The notes under the pieces were generated by a model. It was not told the DNA's origin. It ran no database searches and saw only the letters and a list, made by a program, of their open reading frames with translations. Both the position numbers and the translations under genes were made by a program. Shown here piece by piece: positions 9,202 to 16,214 of a stretch of 35,899 bases of DNA. The stretch lies in assembly GCF_900115185.1 (NCBI RefSeq), contig NZ_FOVN01000009.1, positions 1 to 35,899 of the forward strand, in the 5' to 3' direction. This stretch comes from Algorimicrobium echini (GTDB taxonomy: Bacteria; Bacteroidota; Bacteroidia; Flavobacteriales; Flavobacteriaceae). The first letter of the stretch is position 1. Each line of letters begins with the position of its first letter.

Positions 9202-9297
9202 TAGTTAAAAATACATATTTGTTTCCAATTCAATTCATCTTTAACAAACATTTAAACGAAGCGAATATCTTTTTCAACGCTTTTTAGTGTTTATTTT

Positions 9298-9327
9298 TTG
9301 GTTAGTTAAATTTTCATTTTATATTTG
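9298..9327 (+). promoter_or_regulatory. trp operon promoter
   Basis: TTG (9298-9300), a 19-bp spacer and TATATTTG (9320-9327) match the Bacteroidota promoter pattern TTG-N19-TAnnTTTG. Transcription would begin near 9333, only about 12 nt before the leader peptide ATG at 9345. Confidence 0.8.
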
Positions 9328-9344
9328 ACTCACAATTTAAATTA

Positions 9345-9407
9345 ATGAACACAATTTTAAATCATACATGGTGGTGGAGCAATCGAAACTCAAAATTCGT
9401 GAACTAA
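9345..9407 (+). CDS. trpL: trp leader peptide with three consecutive Trp codons
   Basis: A 20-codon reading frame from ATG 9345 to TAA 9405-9407. Codons 9-11 (9369-9377) are all TGG, and the peptide contains no other recognisable domain. It lies directly after the trp promoter and before the terminator at 9446-9478. Trp is the rarest residue, so three in a row immediately upstream of trpE is strong evidence for an attenuation sensor: scarce Trp-tRNA would stall the ribosome here. The last codons (Phe18-Val19-Asn20) contain TCGTGAA, which is complementary to the terminator loop. Confidence 0.88.
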   Translation: MNTILNHTWWWSNRNSKFVN

Positions 9408-9445
9408 CCCTATTCTGTATATTTAAAACTTAACATACGCAAAAA

Positions 9446-9478
9446 GGCTTGTCATTCACGACAAGCCTTTTTTTTTTT
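9446..9478 (+). terminator. trp attenuator terminator
   Basis: GGCTTGTC (9446-9453) pairs with GACAAGCC (9460-9467) around the loop ATTCAC, extended by A-T pairs and followed by eleven Ts. TTCACGA (9455-9461) in the loop and 3' arm is the exact complement of TCGTGAA (9397-9403) in the leader, giving a competing antiterminator pairing. Confidence 0.9.
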
Positions 9479-9491
9479 GAAATACATATTT

Positions 9492-10895
9492 ATGAAAAAA
9501 TTTAGCCTATACACCCATTATAAAAAAATTCTAGCTGATACCATCACACCAGTAAGTGTGTATTTAAAAATTCGTGATAAATTCCCGAATAGTATTTTAT
9601 TGGAAAGTAGCGACTATCATGCAAGCGACAACACCTTTTCTTACATCTGCTGCAACCCAATAGCGTCTATTTCGGTAAAAAATGAAGAAATCACTCAAAA
9701 TTTCCCTGATGGCAGCCAATTAAATCATAAAATCTCAAAAAAAACAAATGTCGTAGCAAATATCCATAAATTCACTAAACGTTTTAAAATTCATTCAGAC
9801 ACCAATTTTAAATTTATAAACAATGGTGTTTTTGGCTATATGGCTTATGATGCGGTTCGGTATTTTGAAGACGTTTCTATCTCTAAAAAAGAAAACCACC
9901 TGGATATTCCTGATATATACTATGCCGTTTATCAAAATATTATAGCCATAAATCATCATAAAAATGAAGCCTATATCTTTGCACATTGTTTTAATACGGA
10001 AACAAATATTGATGAAATTTTACAACTCATCACCTCTCGCAATTTTGCAGCTTTCAACTTTTCGGTAGTAGGTGATACAGCATCTAATATTACAGATAAA
10101 GCCTATAAAGATCAAGTGGAATTAGCCAGAAGACATTGTGCACGAGGCGATGTATTTCAGTTGGTTCTATCAAAAAAATTCTCACAAAAATTTAAAGGCG
10201 ATGAATTTAATGTTTATAGAGCCTTACGAAGTATTAATCCATCACCTTATCTGTTTTACTTTGACTATGGCGATTTTAAAATCTTTGGAAGCTCGCCAGA
10301 AGCACAATTAGTAGTTAAAGGCGAAAAAGCTGAAATTCATCCTATTGCAGGAACTTTTAAACGAACTGGTAACGATGAAAAAGATGCTTTGCTTGCTAAA
10401 CAGCTTGCTGAAGATGATAAAGAAAATGCCGAACATGTTATGCTAGTCGATTTAGCTAGAAATGATTTAAGCAGACACGGAAGCCAAGTAACAGTTGAAA
10501 CCAATAGAGAGGTTCAGTTCTTTTCTCATGTAATTCATTTAGTGAGTAAAGTTACAGGTAAAAAACATGCCGAAACCACTACTATGCAAATGGTTGCCGA
10601 TACATTTCCTGCTGGAACTTTAAGTGGAGCGCCTAAACATAAGGCCATGCAACTCATTGAAAAATATGAAACAACTAGTCGCGATTTTTATGGAGGCGCC
10701 ATTGGTTTTATGGATTTTCATGGCAATTTTAATCATGCTATTATGATTCGGACTTTTTTAAGTAAAAACCATGAACTGCACTGGCAAGCAGGCGCTGGAT
10801 TGGTTTCAAAATCAGACCCAGAAAGTGAGTTACAAGAAGTGTATAATAAATTAGGCGCTTTAACAAAAGCAATAGAATTGGCAACCGAAATTTAA
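9492..10895 (+). CDS. trpE: Anthranilate synthase component I
   Basis: 467 residues from ATG 9492. This start is preferred over an in-frame TTG at 9477, which falls in the terminator T run. It converts chorismate plus ammonia or glutamine to anthranilate. The N-terminal Trp-binding motif LLES is at residues 36-39, suggesting feedback inhibition. The catalytic domain shows DVFQLVLSKKF, FGSSPEAQLVV, PIAGTFKRTG, HVMLVDLARNDLSRHG and the closing AGAGLVSKSDPESELQEV. Length is normal for the family. First structural gene of the operon, 13 bp after the attenuator T run; trpG starts 3 bp after its stop. Confidence 0.97.
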   Translation: MKKFSLYTHYKKILADTITPVSVYLKIRDKFPNSILLESSDYHASDNTFSYICCNPIASISVKNEEITQNFPDGSQLNHKISKKTNVVANIHKFTKRFKIHSDTNFKFINNGVFGYMAYDAVRYFEDVSISKKENHLDIPDIYYAVYQNIIAINHHKNEAYIFAHCFNTETNIDEILQLITSRNFAAFNFSVVGDTASNITDKAYKDQVELARRHCARGDVFQLVLSKKFSQKFKGDEFNVYRALRSINPSPYLFYFDYGDFKIFGSSPEAQLVVKGEKAEIHPIAGTFKRTGNDEKDALLAKQLAEDDKENAEHVMLVDLARNDLSRHGSQVTVETNREVQFFSHVIHLVSKVTGKKHAETTTMQMVADTFPAGTLSGAPKHKAMQLIEKYETTSRDFYGGAIGFMDFHGNFNHAIMIRTFLSKNHELHWQAGAGLVSKSDPESELQEVYNKLGALTKAIELATEI

Positions 10896-10898
10896 AAG

Positions 10899-11474
10899 AT
10901 GGAACACAACACACATATATTAGTTATTGATAATTACGATAGTTTTACCTATAATCTCGTACATTATCTAGAGGATTTAAATTGTAAAGTAACCGTTAAA
11001 CGTAATGACCAACTTACTTTGGATGACGTTAATGCGTTTAATAAAATTGTATTATCTCCAGGGCCAGGTATTCCAGATGAAGCTGGTTTACTTAAAGCCA
11101 TTATCCAAAAATATGCACCCACAAAAAGCATTTTAGGTGTTTGTTTAGGGCAACAAGCTATTGGCGAGGTTTTTGGAGGCTCACTAACCAATTTAGAAAC
11201 CGTTTTTCATGGTGTAGCTACACAAATTACAGTGACAGTGGATGATGAAAACCTGTTCAAAGGAATGGGTAAAACCATGGAGGTTGGTCGATACCATTCT
11301 TGGGTGGTTCAAAACAATTTACCCGATGTTTTAGAAGCTACATCCTTTGATGAAAATGGACAAATAATGTCACTTCGTCATAAATTTTTTGATGTTCGTG
11401 GTGTTCAATTTCATCCAGAATCTGTATTAACACCAAATGGAAAACAGATATTAGCAAATTGGCTGAATAGTTGA
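10899..11474 (+). CDS. trpG: Anthranilate synthase component II (glutamine amidotransferase)
   Basis: 191 residues. Class I amidotransferase that supplies ammonia to TrpE. The opening IDNYDSFTYNLVHYL, the oxyanion loop SPGPGIPDEAG, nucleophile Cys82 in GVCLGQQAIGE, and His-x-Glu in VQFHPESVLTPNG are all present. It is the short form without a fused TrpD. Because no pabA is seen in the window, a shared role with 4-amino-4-deoxychorismate synthesis is possible but not shown. A 177-bp non-coding gap follows before trpD, the largest gap inside the operon. Confidence 0.96.
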   Translation: MEHNTHILVIDNYDSFTYNLVHYLEDLNCKVTVKRNDQLTLDDVNAFNKIVLSPGPGIPDEAGLLKAIIQKYAPTKSILGVCLGQQAIGEVFGGSLTNLETVFHGVATQITVTVDDENLFKGMGKTMEVGRYHSWVVQNNLPDVLEATSFDENGQIMSLRHKFFDVRGVQFHPESVLTPNGKQILANWLNS

Positions 11475-11651
11475 ATTAATGAAAACAAATAAATTAAAAT
11501 AAAAGTATTTAGTTTTTTTAGAACACACAATTTGTTATTTGATAATTAGGTCAGAATGCAGCAATAACTCATTTACATAATTACTTAAAAATTAAAAAGT
11601 GTTCCAAAAAAAAGAAAGGTCTAGCCTTTAACAAAAAATAGTATCAATAAA

Positions 11652-12647
11652 ATGAAAAACACACTTAATAGACTAATAAATCAAGAGCATATTTCTAGCG
11701 AAGAAGCAAAAAGTGTCTTGGTTAATATTTCAAAAGGCAATTATAATCAAAGCCAGATAGCATCCTTTTTAACAGTTTATATGATGCGAAATATTACCAT
11801 TGAAGAACTTCAAGGTTTTCGTGATGCTTTATTGGAGTTATGTATTCCAGTTGACTTAAAAGCCTATAATGCCATAGATTTATGTGGTACTGGTGGTGAT
11901 GGCAAAGACACTTTTAATATTTCAACTTTAGCTTCTTTTGTAACAGCTGGAGCTGGTGTGCATGTTTCAAAACATGGTAATTACGGTGTTTCTTCTGCTT
12001 GTGGCTCATCTAATGTCATGGAGCATTTAGGTATAAAATTCAGTAATGATATTGATTTTTTAAAAACCTGTTTGGATCATGCAGGCATTTGTGTACTACA
12101 CGCTCCTTTGTTTCATCCTGCCATGAAAAACGTAGCGCCAATACGTAAAGAATTAGGAGTAAAAACATTTTTTAATATGTTGGGCCCCATGGTTAATCCG
12201 TCCTTTCCAGACAATCAATTAGTTGGTGTTTTTAGTTTAGAATTATTGCGCTTATATAATTACCTCTATCAAAATTCAGACAAAAACTATAGCATTGTTC
12301 ATGCTTTAGATGGCTATGATGAAATATCACTAACAGGATCGGCAAAGGTGATTAATAATGTCTCTGAAAAGATAATTCATCCAAGTGATTTTGGTGTTGA
12401 ACCTCTTAAACAGGAAGCCATTCATGGTGGTGATACTGTAGCAGCATCTGCAAAAATATTTACTCATATTTTAGATGGTCAAGGAACCAATGCCCAAAAC
12501 AATGTGGTTTGTGCCAATGCAGCATTAGCAATAGCTACGGTGAAAAACACTTCTATTTCAGATAGTTTTGCTCTAGCAAAAGAATCCTTACATAGTGGTC
12601 AAGCTAAAAAGTGTTTTGAAAAATTGGTTGCGTTAAGTCAGAAATAA
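11652..12647 (+). CDS. trpD: Anthranilate phosphoribosyltransferase
   Basis: 331 residues. Transfers phosphoribose from PRPP to anthranilate. The PRPP-binding glycine loop CGTGGDGKDTFNIST lies at about 78-92, KHGNYGVSSACGSSNVMEHLG follows, and HPAMKNVAPIRKELGVKTFFNMLGP is the anthranilate-site region. All of these are family hallmarks and the length is normal. It is separated from trpG by 177 bp in which I find no clear terminator or -7 box, so it is probably still part of the same transcript. trpC follows 22 bp later. Confidence 0.96.
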   Translation: MKNTLNRLINQEHISSEEAKSVLVNISKGNYNQSQIASFLTVYMMRNITIEELQGFRDALLELCIPVDLKAYNAIDLCGTGGDGKDTFNISTLASFVTAGAGVHVSKHGNYGVSSACGSSNVMEHLGIKFSNDIDFLKTCLDHAGICVLHAPLFHPAMKNVAPIRKELGVKTFFNMLGPMVNPSFPDNQLVGVFSLELLRLYNYLYQNSDKNYSIVHALDGYDEISLTGSAKVINNVSEKIIHPSDFGVEPLKQEAIHGGDTVAASAKIFTHILDGQGTNAQNNVVCANAALAIATVKNTSISDSFALAKESLHSGQAKKCFEKLVALSQK

Positions 12648-12669
12648 AAAAAACATCTATAAACACGAA

Positions 12670-13461
12670 ATGGCCATGGATATATTAAAAAAAATAGTAA
12701 CAGATAAACGTCAAGAAATTGCTTTTAAAAAGCAACTCATTCCTACATTTCAATTGGAGCAATCAGTGTTATTTGAGCGGGAAACCGTTTCTATCATTAA
12801 TAATTTACAAAACAATGAAATTGGAATCATTGCTGAACACAAAAGACGTTCCCCATCTAAACAAGTTATAAATCATAATTTAAATGTATTTGATGTGGCT
12901 CAAGGATATGAAAAAGCTGGTGTTTGTGGTATGTCGGTTTTAACGGATGGTAAATATTTTGGTGGATCGTTAGACGATTTACTTTTAGCAAAATCAAGTT
13001 GTAACCTGCCTCTATTACGAAAGGAATTCATTATTGATAACTACCAGATATTAGAGGCTAAAGCCTATGGTGCCGATGTTATTTTATTGATAGCTACCAT
13101 TTTAACCCAAAAAGAAATCAAAATCTTATCAGAATTTGCAAAAAGTTTACAATTGGAGGTGCTTTTGGAAGTTCATAATGAAGCTGAATTACGAAAATCT
13201 ATTATGCCGAGTTTAGATATGATTGGTGTCAATAACCGTAATTTAAAAACGTTTGAAGTATCATTAGAAACAAGCAAAATGTTAAGCACATTAATCCCAA
13301 ACGATTTTATAAAGGTTTCAGAGAGTGGCATCAGTAATGTGGAAGCTATAAGAGAATTGAAACCTTTTGGTTATCAAGGGTTTTTAATTGGTGAAAATTT
13401 TATGAAAACGGATAATCCAGGTGAAAGCGCTGGTTATTTTATAAACCAATTTTCCTTATGA
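12670..13461 (+). CDS. trpC: Indole-3-glycerol-phosphate synthase
   Basis: 263 residues from the first ATG. A second in-frame ATG at 12676 gives MDILKKIVTDKR, closer to the usual family start, so either may be used. It closes the indole ring of CdRP. TIM-barrel motifs: IIAEHKRRSPSK (catalytic Lys), GMSVLTDGKYFGGSLDDL, LRKEFIIDNYQI, LLEVHNEAEL, IGVNNRNLKTFEV and VSESGI near the C terminus. It is not fused to TrpF, unlike the enterobacterial enzyme. Its TGA overlaps the trpF ATG (ATGA at 13458), pointing to translational coupling. Confidence 0.96.
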   Translation: MAMDILKKIVTDKRQEIAFKKQLIPTFQLEQSVLFERETVSIINNLQNNEIGIIAEHKRRSPSKQVINHNLNVFDVAQGYEKAGVCGMSVLTDGKYFGGSLDDLLLAKSSCNLPLLRKEFIIDNYQILEAKAYGADVILLIATILTQKEIKILSEFAKSLQLEVLLEVHNEAELRKSIMPSLDMIGVNNRNLKTFEVSLETSKMLSTLIPNDFIKVSESGISNVEAIRELKPFGYQGFLIGENFMKTDNPGESAGYFINQFSL

Positions 13462-14105
13462 AACTGAAAGTTTGTGGGATGAAATTCCCAGATAACATAG
13501 AAGCTATTGCTAAATTACAACCAGATTATTTAGGTTTTATTTTTTATAAAAAATCAACTCGTTTTTTTGATGCTATAATTCCATCATTACCTGATGCCAT
13601 TAAAAAAGTAGGAGTTTTTGTAGATGCATCAGCGGAAGACATTATAACCCTAGCAAATAATTACAATCTGGATGTTATACAATTACATGGCAATCAAACC
13701 AAGGAATTTGTTTTAGCATTAAACAAACTCGTCTCGCTTTATGCAAACAAAGAAATTGAAATTTGGAAAGTTTTCAGTGTTGATAAGCATTTCAATTTCA
13801 AGGACTTGCATCCTTTTGAAAATGAAGTTCATAAATATCTGTTTGACACCAAAGGCCAACTAAAAGGTGGTAACGGCTATACCTTTAATTGGGAAATCTT
13901 AAAAGAATATCCTTCTAAAAAACCATTTATTTTAAGTGGTGGTATTGGTTTAGATGAAGTGGAAAATATTAAAAATTTTTTTAAGCTGGACGTTTCAAAA
14001 AACTGTTTTGCTTTGGATGTGAATAGTCAATTTGAAATAAAATCAGGACTTAAAAACATTGAGGCTTTAGAAAAATTTAAAAATAAGCTACATCACTTCA
14101 AATGA
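13458..14105 (+). CDS. trpF: Phosphoribosylanthranilate isomerase
   Basis: 215 residues. Performs the Amadori rearrangement of PRA to CdRP. The start LKVCGMKFPDNI carries the catalytic Cys6. Further motifs are YLGFIFYKKSTRF, VGVFVDAS, VIQLHGNQTKEF, the Asp-containing YLFDTKGQLKGGNGYTFNW and FILSGGIGLDEVENI. It is slightly longer than the usual 200 residues because of a loop insertion around residues 90-110 (LYANKEIEIWKVFSV). Overlaps trpC by four bases. A 91-bp gap precedes trpB. Confidence 0.95.
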   Translation: MKLKVCGMKFPDNIEAIAKLQPDYLGFIFYKKSTRFFDAIIPSLPDAIKKVGVFVDASAEDIITLANNYNLDVIQLHGNQTKEFVLALNKLVSLYANKEIEIWKVFSVDKHFNFKDLHPFENEVHKYLFDTKGQLKGGNGYTFNWEILKEYPSKKPFILSGGIGLDEVENIKNFFKLDVSKNCFALDVNSQFEIKSGLKNIEALEKFKNKLHHFK

Positions 14106-14196
14106 TTTTATAACGGACGAAAAATAAGTAACGAAAAGCAAAAGAATCAAAAAATTAAATTCTAATTGAATTTTAGAAACCTAACAACAAAACAAC

Positions 14197-15378
14197 ATGA
14201 CTTACAACATAAACGAAAAAGGCTATTATGGTGAATTTGGAGGCGCTTATATTCCAGAAATGCTCTATCCTAACGTCGAGGAATTACGCTTAAAATACCT
14301 AGAAGTTATGGCGGAGCCAGACTTCCAAACGGAATTTAAAGCTTTACTTAAAAACTATGTTGGCAGACCGTCCCCCTTATATTTTGCTAAACGCCTTTCA
14401 GAAAAATATAACACAAAAATTTATTTAAAGCGCGAAGATTTAAATCATACAGGAGCTCATAAAATCAATAACACTATTGGTCAAATTCTGATGGCGCAAC
14501 GCTTGGGTAAGAAACGCATTATTGCCGAAACTGGTGCTGGGCAACATGGTGTAGCTACAGCAACCGTTTGTGCATTAATGGGGCTTGAATGTATTGTATA
14601 TATGGGAGAAATAGACATAGCAAGGCAAGCACCCAATGTGGCTCGAATGCAAATGCTTGGTGCTAAAGTTATTCCTGCATCATCTGGTAGTAAAACACTG
14701 AAGGACGCAACAAATGAAGCCATTCGCGATTGGATTAACAATCCAGTAGATACACATTACATTATTGGTAGTGTGGTTGGACCACATCCATATCCAGATA
14801 TGGTAGCGCGTTTTCAAGCAATTGTTTCTGAAGAAATAAAATGGCAATTACAAGAACAGGAGGGTAATCCAAATCCTGATTATGTAATTGCCTGTGTTGG
14901 TGGTGGCAGTAATGCGGCAGGTGCTTATTATCATTTTTTGGAAGACACAAATGTAAAACTTATAGCTGTTGAAGCCGCTGGAAAAGGCGTCAATTCTGGA
15001 GAAAGTGCTGCAACTTCATCTTTGGGCAAAATAGGTATTATACATGGAAGCAAAACGTTATTAATGCAAAGTAAAGATGGGCAAATTACAGAACCTTATT
15101 CTATTTCTGCAGGACTGGATTACCCTGGAGTTGGCCCTTTGCATGCGCACTTATTCCAATCGGGTCGTGCAGAATTTATAGCCATAACAGATGATGAGGC
15201 CATGGAAGCTGGACTAGAATTATGCCAATTAGAAGGTATTATACCAGCTATAGAAACCGCTCACGCATTAGCGATCTTTAAAGAAAAGCCGTTTCAACCC
15301 AATGACATTGTTGTATTAAGTTTATCCGGTCGTGGAGATAAAGATTTGAGTACTTATAATAATTATTTTAATATATAA
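14197..15378 (+). CDS. trpB: Tryptophan synthase beta chain
   Basis: 393 residues. PLP enzyme that joins indole and serine. The PLP lysine is K89 in [10 protein letters not shown]. The phosphate-binding loop [10 protein letters not shown], the catalytic Glu region [14 protein letters not shown], and the closing [11 protein letters not shown] are in place. The N terminus [12 protein letters not shown] is that of the classical TrpB1 form that pairs with TrpA. High conservation and normal length leave no doubt. A weak hairpin at 15377-15400 overlaps the stop and lies before trpA. Confidence 0.98.
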
Positions 15379-15400
15379 AACACCAGCTAAATAGTGTTTT
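15377..15400 (+). other. Weak AAAACAC/GTGTTTT stem-loop between trpB and trpA
   Basis: A 7-bp stem (15377-15383 with 15394-15400) around a 10-nt loop overlaps the trpB stop. It has only four Ts after it and few G-C pairs, so full termination is unlikely. It may protect or process the mRNA, or be fortuitous. Confidence 0.3.
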
Positions 15401-15449
15401 CTAGATTGACCCGAAAGATAAGATTGCGTATTCCGAAAAAAAAAGAAAA

Positions 15450-16214
15450 ATGAATAGAATAAATCAAAAATTACAAGCAGATAAAAAGTTGTTATCCATT
15501 TATTTTACAGCTGGATATCCGCAATTAACAGACACCGTTTCCATAATACAAAATCTTGAAAAAAGCGGTATAGATATGGTAGAAATTGGATTACCATTTA
15601 GTGACCCTCTAGCAGACGGCCCAACAATTCAGGCGAGTTCAACTCAAGCATTAAAAAATGGCATGACTACCGAGACCCTTTTTAATCAGCTCAAAGATAT
15701 CCGAAAAACCGTTTCTATTCCATTAATAATCATGGGATATTTCAACCCTATTTTACAATTTGGTGTGGAAGCATTTTGCAAAAAATGTCAAGAAGTAGGA
15801 ATTGATGGTTTAATTATTCCAGATTTACCAGTGGATGTTTATAATGATAATTATAAATCAATTTTTGAAAAATATAGTCTTGTAAATGTATTTTTAATCA
15901 CGCCTCAAACATCAGAGAAACGCATCCAATTTATTGATAGCATATCAAATGGTTTCATTTATATGGTTAGTAGTGCCAGCGTAACTGGTAGCCAAACTGG
16001 TTTTGGCAATGACCAATTAGCTTATTTTAAACGAATTGAAACCATGAAACTGAAAAGCCCTCAAATTATTGGTTTTGGTATTTCAACAAATGAAACCTTT
16101 AATCAAGCAATCAAATATGCTAAAGGCGCTATAATTGGTAGTGCATTTATAAAACATTTAAAACATGAAGGTGTTAGTAATATTGATAGGTTTGTAAAAC
16201 AGATTAGACCATAA
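15450..16214 (+). CDS. trpA: Tryptophan synthase alpha chain
   Basis: 254 residues. Cleaves indole-3-glycerol phosphate to indole and G3P. The opening YFTAGYP, catalytic Glu45 in VEIGLPFSDPLADGP and the second acid Asp56 in the same motif are present, as are PLIIMGYFNPILQFG, DGLIIPDLPVD, FLITPQTSEKRI, YMVSSASVTGS and IGFGIST. Complete TIM barrel of normal size. It is the last enzyme of the operon. A 74-aa membrane protein gene begins 10 bp after its stop and is almost certainly co-transcribed. Confidence 0.97.
   Translation: MNRINQKLQADKKLLSIYFTAGYPQLTDTVSIIQNLEKSGIDMVEIGLPFSDPLADGPTIQASSTQALKNGMTTETLFNQLKDIRKTVSIPLIIMGYFNPILQFGVEAFCKKCQEVGIDGLIIPDLPVDVYNDNYKSIFEKYSLVNVFLITPQTSEKRIQFIDSISNGFIYMVSSASVTGSQTGFGNDQLAYFKRIETMKLKSPQIIGFGISTNETFNQAIKYAKGAIIGSAFIKHLKHEGVSNIDRFVKQIRP

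Follow-up and report, generated by a model that had tools for sequence, protein, structure and literature searches.

In attenuators of the Escherichia coli trp type, segments of the leader RNA form the alternative helices 1:2, 2:3 and 3:4, and the 5' arm of the terminator is the target of the antiterminator strand in classical attenuators generally. Among the Bacteroidota, the closest described element is the Bacteroid-trp RNA (Rfam RF01692). In Table 1 of the founding paper (Weinberg et al. 2010, PMC2864571) it appears under Bacteroidetes, with "y" for RNA, "y" for cis-regulatory and "n" for switch; in the paper's passages on RF01692 the element is a likely cis-regulatory RNA and no mechanism is given. 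A passage in a Flavobacterium psychrophilum paper (PMC6414381) compares the Bacteroid-trp RNA to the E. coli trp leader, and the parts of a transcriptome study of F. psychrophilum that concern amino-acid operons (PMC9723704) describe hints of leader-peptide attenuation ahead of them, with structured elements before pheA and hisG. In view of these reports, a Trp-leader attenuator in Bacteroidota has already been proposed. The RF01692 structure ends in the 5' arm of the terminator and includes neither an antiterminator nor a pairing between leader and terminator loop; a description of such a pairing was not found in the part of the literature that was searched.

The stretch of DNA analysed here, referred to as the window, comprises 35,899 nt of the Algorimicrobium echini genome (contig NZ_FOVN01000009.1). 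It carries a complete trp operon, trpEGDCFBA as judged from Pfam families, 3' of a leader that aligns to the full RF01692 model (1-131) with a score of 72.8 against a gathering cut-off of 49 bits. RF01692 was the only Rfam family found at gathering score in the window; a T-box leader was rejected, no T-box covariance-model match being present at cut-off. The trp genes of a Bacteroidota genome downstream and the WWW sequence in the leader peptide likewise agree with membership in the Bacteroid-trp family, which has matches in 141 of 199 genomes sampled from the Flavobacteriaceae (123 above cut-off) and in 42 of 395 sampled from the phylum (38 above cut-off). The closest named TrpE among the matches listed, from which the window's own records may be missing, is that of Bizionia algoritergicola (93% identical). 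The element is thus already catalogued: it is RF01692, sharing with the other members the covariance-model fit, the position before trp genes, the Trp-codon leader and the terminator 5' arm. What goes beyond the Rfam structure is the pairing between leader and terminator loop. From sequence comparison and RNA folding, the element is very probably a ribosome-mediated transcription attenuator of the Bacteroid-trp type, in which a leader strand (strand 2) pairs with the terminator loop and the start of the 3' arm (strand 3).

Features of the trp leader region and operon in the window, with the evidence for each. All lie on the forward strand.
Feature	Position	Strand	Evidence
Putative -33 element, TTTG	9297-9300	+	Sequence; Bacteroidota promoter pattern; TTG spacing in relatives
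Putative -7 element, TATATTTG (TAnnTTTG)	9320-9327	+	Sequence; box frequency in relatives
Rfam RF01692 (Bacteroid-trp) match, 72.8 bits	9325-9453	+	Covariance model
Leader peptide ORF, MNTILNHTWWWSNRNSKFVN and stop, 20 codons	9345-9407	+	Read from sequence
Outer protector helix, 5' strand ATACA (partner 9416-9420)	9364-9368	+	RF01692 structure line; MFE fold
Three Trp codons, putative sensor	9369-9377	+	Sequence
Strand 1, CGAA (partner 9396-9399; protector hairpin, weak in the window)	9384-9387	+	Folding
Strand 2, TCGTGAA, proposed antiterminator strand	9397-9403	+	Core-pair counts; column shuffles
Outer protector helix, 3' strand TGTAT	9416-9420	+	RF01692 structure line; MFE fold
Intrinsic terminator: 13-bp stem (9441-9453/9460-9472), 6-nt loop ATTCAC, T11 (9468-9478)	9441-9478	+	Terminator search; hairpin -17.7 kcal/mol
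Strand 3, TTCACGA, partner of strand 2 (terminator loop and first two 3'-arm nt)	9455-9461	+	Core-pair counts; column shuffles; loop conservation
trpE, first structural gene	9492-10895	+	Pfam families
trpG, trpD, trpC, trpF, trpB, trpA	10899-16214	+	Pfam families, from which the gene names follow

An earlier note on this DNA, made from its letters alone, had described the 20-codon leader, the three Trp codons, the T11 terminator and trpE behind it, as well as the exact complementarity between TCGTGAA and TTCACGA. All of these are present in the sequence at the positions given in the table, and the terminator is the single terminator-like site between 9200 and 9520 (shuffle mean, 0.1). Taken by itself the complementarity is weakly significant: when the leader tail was dinucleotide-shuffled 2000 times, 4.5% of the shuffles gave a helix as good (P 0.045), and 2.5% did so when only pairing to the loop and three further nucleotides of the 3' arm was allowed. 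A genome-wide search for TTGTCGTGA yielded 9 sites, against 34 for a reversed-pattern control, hence no enrichment. Since the single sequence proves little, the claim has to be carried by comparative evidence, and leader loci were therefore collected from other genomes.

The collection comprised 253 loci (L003 to L255, the window being L009), of which 173 were reached through RF01692 matches and 80 through TrpE alone, the latter being the best 80 of at least 591 TrpE matches. The RF01692 model spans strand 2 and stops short of the terminator loop and 3' arm. One RF01692 match at a contig end (G082) was left out of the loci. Also set aside were two loci lacking a leader, both cut by contig ends (L193, L237), five in which the parser called no terminator (L090, L207, L226, L230, L232), eight duplicates and one locus on the wrong strand (L068), leaving 237 distinct leaders with the window included. 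Leader and terminator were aligned separately, so that the alignment anchors are independent of the pairing. Inspection by eye of some of the omitted loci showed TCGTGAA and TTCACGA in L193, an intact leader further upstream with all six core pairs in each of L207, L226, L230 and L232, and five of six core pairs, one of them doubly changed, in L090 (AAGTGA against TCACTG). Conservation of Trp codons in the leaders of relatives, a check proposed in the earlier note, was borne out: 225 of the 237 leaders have three and 8 have two. The remaining 4 count four, the parser having chosen a start upstream of a further TGG.

All six core pairs of the leader-loop helix are standard in 209 of the 237 leaders, and at least one is missing in 28. 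The proportion is similar however the loci were reached (60/68 TrpE-selected and 149/169 RF01692-selected leaders), and five of the eight TrpE-selected leaders that fall short are Pontibacter sequences with a shifted register. Standard pairing at the successive core positions amounts to 226, 230, 236, 233 and 229 of 237 and, at the sixth, 224 of 235; the pairing attains P<=0.05 in 150 of 237 leaders taken singly (60 shuffles each). When the leader segment that starts at the last Trp codon and extends 13 nt beyond the stop is matched to the terminator hairpin, the best helix engages the loop and 3' arm in 217 of 238 leaders. In addition, the last four bases of the terminator loop, TCAC, are conserved (T 217/235, C 224/237, A 213/237, C 215/237). 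The base before them varies (T 100, A 97 and G 3 of 200), as does loop length, and the second base before them, where present, is A in 121 of 144. No general cause for the conservation of terminator loops is known to us.

Double changes that keep the pairing occur at L103 (TCGCAA/TTGCGA), L253 (TCGCGA/TCGCGA, a palindrome), L140 (TCGTAA/TTACGA) and, at the first core pair, L138. In three leaders from other families of the class (L143, L148 and L169), TCGTAA is accompanied by TTGCGG, CTGCGA and TTACGG, respectively, with a T opposite the changed A. Such changes are found in several genera, whose standing as separate lineages is taken from genus and family labels. In column shuffles that ignore kinship, the observed 1378 paired core cells of 1420 (shuffle mean, 1370.0) and the 8 double-change cells (mean, 0.64) were each reached in none of 2000 shuffles, while 9 further pair types (mean, 6.6) and 3 core pairs with a double change (mean, 0.6) were reached in 26 and 22 of 2000, respectively. 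Sliding the partners by one to three columns left 34 to 711 paired cells of 960 to 1422. Because slides of -2 and +1 produce 10 and 8 double-change cells themselves (with 376/1191 and 34/1422 cells paired), the double-change count alone does not discriminate. At individual positions, Fisher tests that ignore kinship associate A in the leader with T in the terminator at core pair five (P 5e-7) and C in the leader with G in the terminator at core pair four (P 0.001); at core pair two, none of the seven leaders with T has A in the terminator, all being of the G-U type (P 1.0). The covariation that the earlier note proposed to look for is present, and the support it lends rests on few sequences.

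Strand 2 also has a partner upstream. In the window, the hairpin between strands 1 and 2 is weak (-1.2 kcal/mol) and is helped by the outer helix, which is also part of the RF01692 structure; the MFE fold of 9364-9424 comes to -10.4 kcal/mol. Across 236 leaders, the 1:2 hairpin has a mean z of -1.8 relative to dinucleotide shuffles, with z below -1 in 181, and in folds running from the last Trp codon to the core four or more bases of the core and the two positions that follow it are paired upstream in 233. All three strands differ together in L103 (TTGCG, TCGCAA, TTGCGA). Since strand 1 lies just 3' of the Trp codons and pairs with strand 2, the arrangement appears to follow the full three-strand logic of classical attenuation. 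The earlier note had envisaged the same logic with a simplified fold; the logic finds support, and the simplification does not hold.

The placement of the core relative to the leader peptide is narrow. The distance from the last Trp codon to the core start is 18-19 nt in 214 of 237 leaders, and the stop codon begins between -7 and +8 nt of that start in 227. Judging from the known size of the ribosome footprint, a ribosome at the stop codon would therefore cover the core. The stop codon overlaps the core, then in frame 0, in 132 leaders, lies 3' of it in 63 (core in frame 1, 2 or 0 in 57, 4 and 2 of these) and precedes it in 42.

To represent the ribosome, RNA exposed beyond it was folded in 232 leaders, the five Pontibacter leaders being left out. 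The ribosome was assumed to cover 10 nt beyond the last Trp codon when stalled and 10 nt beyond the stop codon when it has reached the end of the ORF; the folds are equilibrium predictions on truncated RNA that take no account of pseudoknots or polymerase contacts. With the ribosome stalled, the predicted antiterminator averaged 0.55 once the loop was out and 0.94 with three to five nucleotides of the 3' arm out, the terminator staying at or below 0.01. With the ribosome at the stop codon, the terminator averaged 0.97. With no ribosome, strand 2 was held upstream at a mean of 0.64, the antiterminator averaged 0.32 with three 3'-arm nucleotides out and the terminator 0.73 with five. In the window, the terminator reached 0.97 without a ribosome (five 3'-arm nucleotides out); with the ribosome stalled, the antiterminator stood at 0.97 with five out and the terminator at 0.96 with eight, pseudoknots not being part of the model. 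RNA polymerase hides some 10-14 nt of its transcript. By the time eight nucleotides of the 3' arm have emerged, polymerase would thus be at or beyond the end of the U-tract. As strand 2 displaces only two or three pairs at the top of the terminator, and the terminator wins at eight nucleotides, the switch would have to be kinetic.

These predictions, together with the covariation and the geometry, agree with the earlier proposal that a ribosome on the Trp codons frees strand 2 and one at the stop codon covers it. When Trp-tRNA is short, the ribosome would stall on the Trp codons, where it would cover strand 1 and keep strand 2 accessible. Strand 2 would pair with the terminator loop as this emerges from RNA polymerase, and then with the first nucleotides of the 3' arm, delaying the terminator until polymerase has moved beyond the U-tract. 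When tryptophan is plentiful, the ribosome would proceed to the stop codon and cover strand 2, and the terminator would form. It would also form in the absence of a ribosome, strand 2 then being held by strand 1 and the outer helix. The switch seems to sense tryptophan by means of a tiny leader peptide.

Other readings of the conserved pairing have to be weighed. The tail of the leader might be kept for its peptide, for example as an arrest peptide, and some tails are indeed alike (NLRQTS and FVN endings). However, genomes differ in the frame of the core (0, 1 or 2), and in some it lies past the stop codon; read in differing frames or left untranslated, the core is conserved as RNA rather than as peptide, and we reject peptide conservation as the cause, finding it scarcely credible. 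A different reading accepts Trp attenuation as real and has the RF01692 hairpin, which joins the Trp-codon region to the region after the stop, do the switching alone, the leader-loop complementarity being incidental or auxiliary. The absence of this complementarity from the RF01692 structure line and its near-chance level in the window alone speak for such a view, but the pairing covaries, persists while the reading frame changes and is the one chosen by the best helix, within the leader segment matched, in the large majority of leaders. Moreover, the 5' arm of the terminator is unpaired in the hairpin as drawn, which in our reading therefore offers no strand to compete with the terminator. 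We regard this explanation as quite improbable.

It is also conceivable that the leader-loop pairing and the lower terminator stem coexist as a pseudoknot, whose role would be to tune termination or to yield a small, stable leader RNA that might act in trans, and not just to block termination. Pairing of strand 2 in the window uses up no more than the loop and two 3'-arm nucleotides; 11 of the 13 terminator pairs are still topologically possible, and the terminator is lower in energy (-17.7 against -8.6 kcal/mol for the strand 2:3 duplex). A trans-acting trp leader peptide is described for Sinorhizobium in a passage of PMC7298713. Against this stand the narrow spacing to the Trp codons and the position of the stop codon, both of which fit gating by the ribosome, and we consider the pseudoknot unlikely. 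The ribosome-gated antiterminator remains the preferred reading.

Like the E. coli trp attenuator, the putative switch combines tandem Trp codons in a leader peptide with three alternative helices, and the position of the ribosome would decide between these; an intrinsic terminator between leader peptide and trpE and a protector 1:2 helix are present as well. In E. coli, however, the antiterminator forms on the 5' arm (segment 3), while here it would form on the loop and 3' arm. A 5'-arm antiterminator was not found in the window, where TCGTGAA pairs with TTCACGA. From sequence and folding we judge that the element would work like a classical trp attenuator lacking this one feature. Relative to RF01692, whose drawn structure stops in the terminator 5' arm, it adds the leader-loop pairing.

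Two further leaders in the same genome have an amino-acid-run leader peptide, a terminator and a complementary leader strand in common with the trp leader. One (L256, on the reverse complement, ATG at 1142) precedes hisG and encodes MSFIQLHHHHFHTCTQAG with a run of four His; its ACTCAAGC pairs with GTTTGAGT in the terminator 5' arm and loop. The other (L257, ATG at 1309) precedes pheA and encodes MNTSTNNTYHNWYYFFFNKRNETLYV with a run of three Phe; its CGAGAC pairs with GTCTCG in the terminator 5' arm. Both look like ribosome-mediated attenuators, and their strands lie in the classical register, in which the trp leader differs from them. For a branched-chain leader (ilvD), PF00920 was not found in the A. 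echini genome. The five Pontibacter trp leaders (L250, L251, L252, L254 and L255) resemble the trp leader of the window in having WWW and, 16 nt after the last Trp codon, TCGTG (ACGTG in L251), but differ in pairing over 8-11 bp with the terminator 5' arm and loop and in giving no RF01692 match at cut-off. The Rfam model could be widened to take them in.

Given that the his, phe and Pontibacter leaders all use the 5' arm, the Flavobacteriaceae trp register stands apart, and what is unusual about the predicted switch is that it would pair with the loop and 3' arm. As a tentative generalization, to which we assign somewhat less than an even chance, the antiterminator of the whole family might act loop first: prior to emergence of the 3' arm, the loop would serve the free leader strand as a toehold, from which it would then invade that arm, termination being kinetically delayed and not excluded. 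In evolution, the same strand would have served two registers, the terminator stem sliding from the Pontibacter side (5' arm and loop) to the Flavobacteriaceae side (loop and 3' arm). An antiterminator placed on the loop and 3' arm would escape searches for competitors of the 5' arm. The comparison would supply a switch mechanism for RF01692, for which the founding paper's passages on this family give none (PMC2864571), and would give the Bacteroidota, in which, according to a passage of PMC9976891, Shine-Dalgarno sequences are not recognised by the ribosomes, a clear translation-coupled transcription switch for study.

In L143, L148 and L166, which belong to other families of the class, a different first gene seems to follow the attenuator, and in L166 the start of this gene is TrpB-like by eye. 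In L207, L226, L230 and L232, an ORF of 66-98 aa, GIY-YIG nuclease-like by eye, lies between the intact attenuator and trpE and could therefore be under Trp control.

Upstream of the leader, the earlier note had seen a consensus promoter. None of the E. coli sigma-70 type was found, whereas TATATTTG, with TTTG ahead of it, fits the Bacteroidota promoter pattern TAnnTTTG. Of the 237 leaders compared, 215 have TAnnTTTG no further than 45 nt ahead of the leader ATG, and 182 of these 215 also have TTG at a distance of 17-24 nt on the 5' side of the -7 box. In 34 of the 215, just 5 nt separate the end of the box from the parser's ATG, which suggests that in these 34 the leader-peptide mRNA is leaderless or nearly so.
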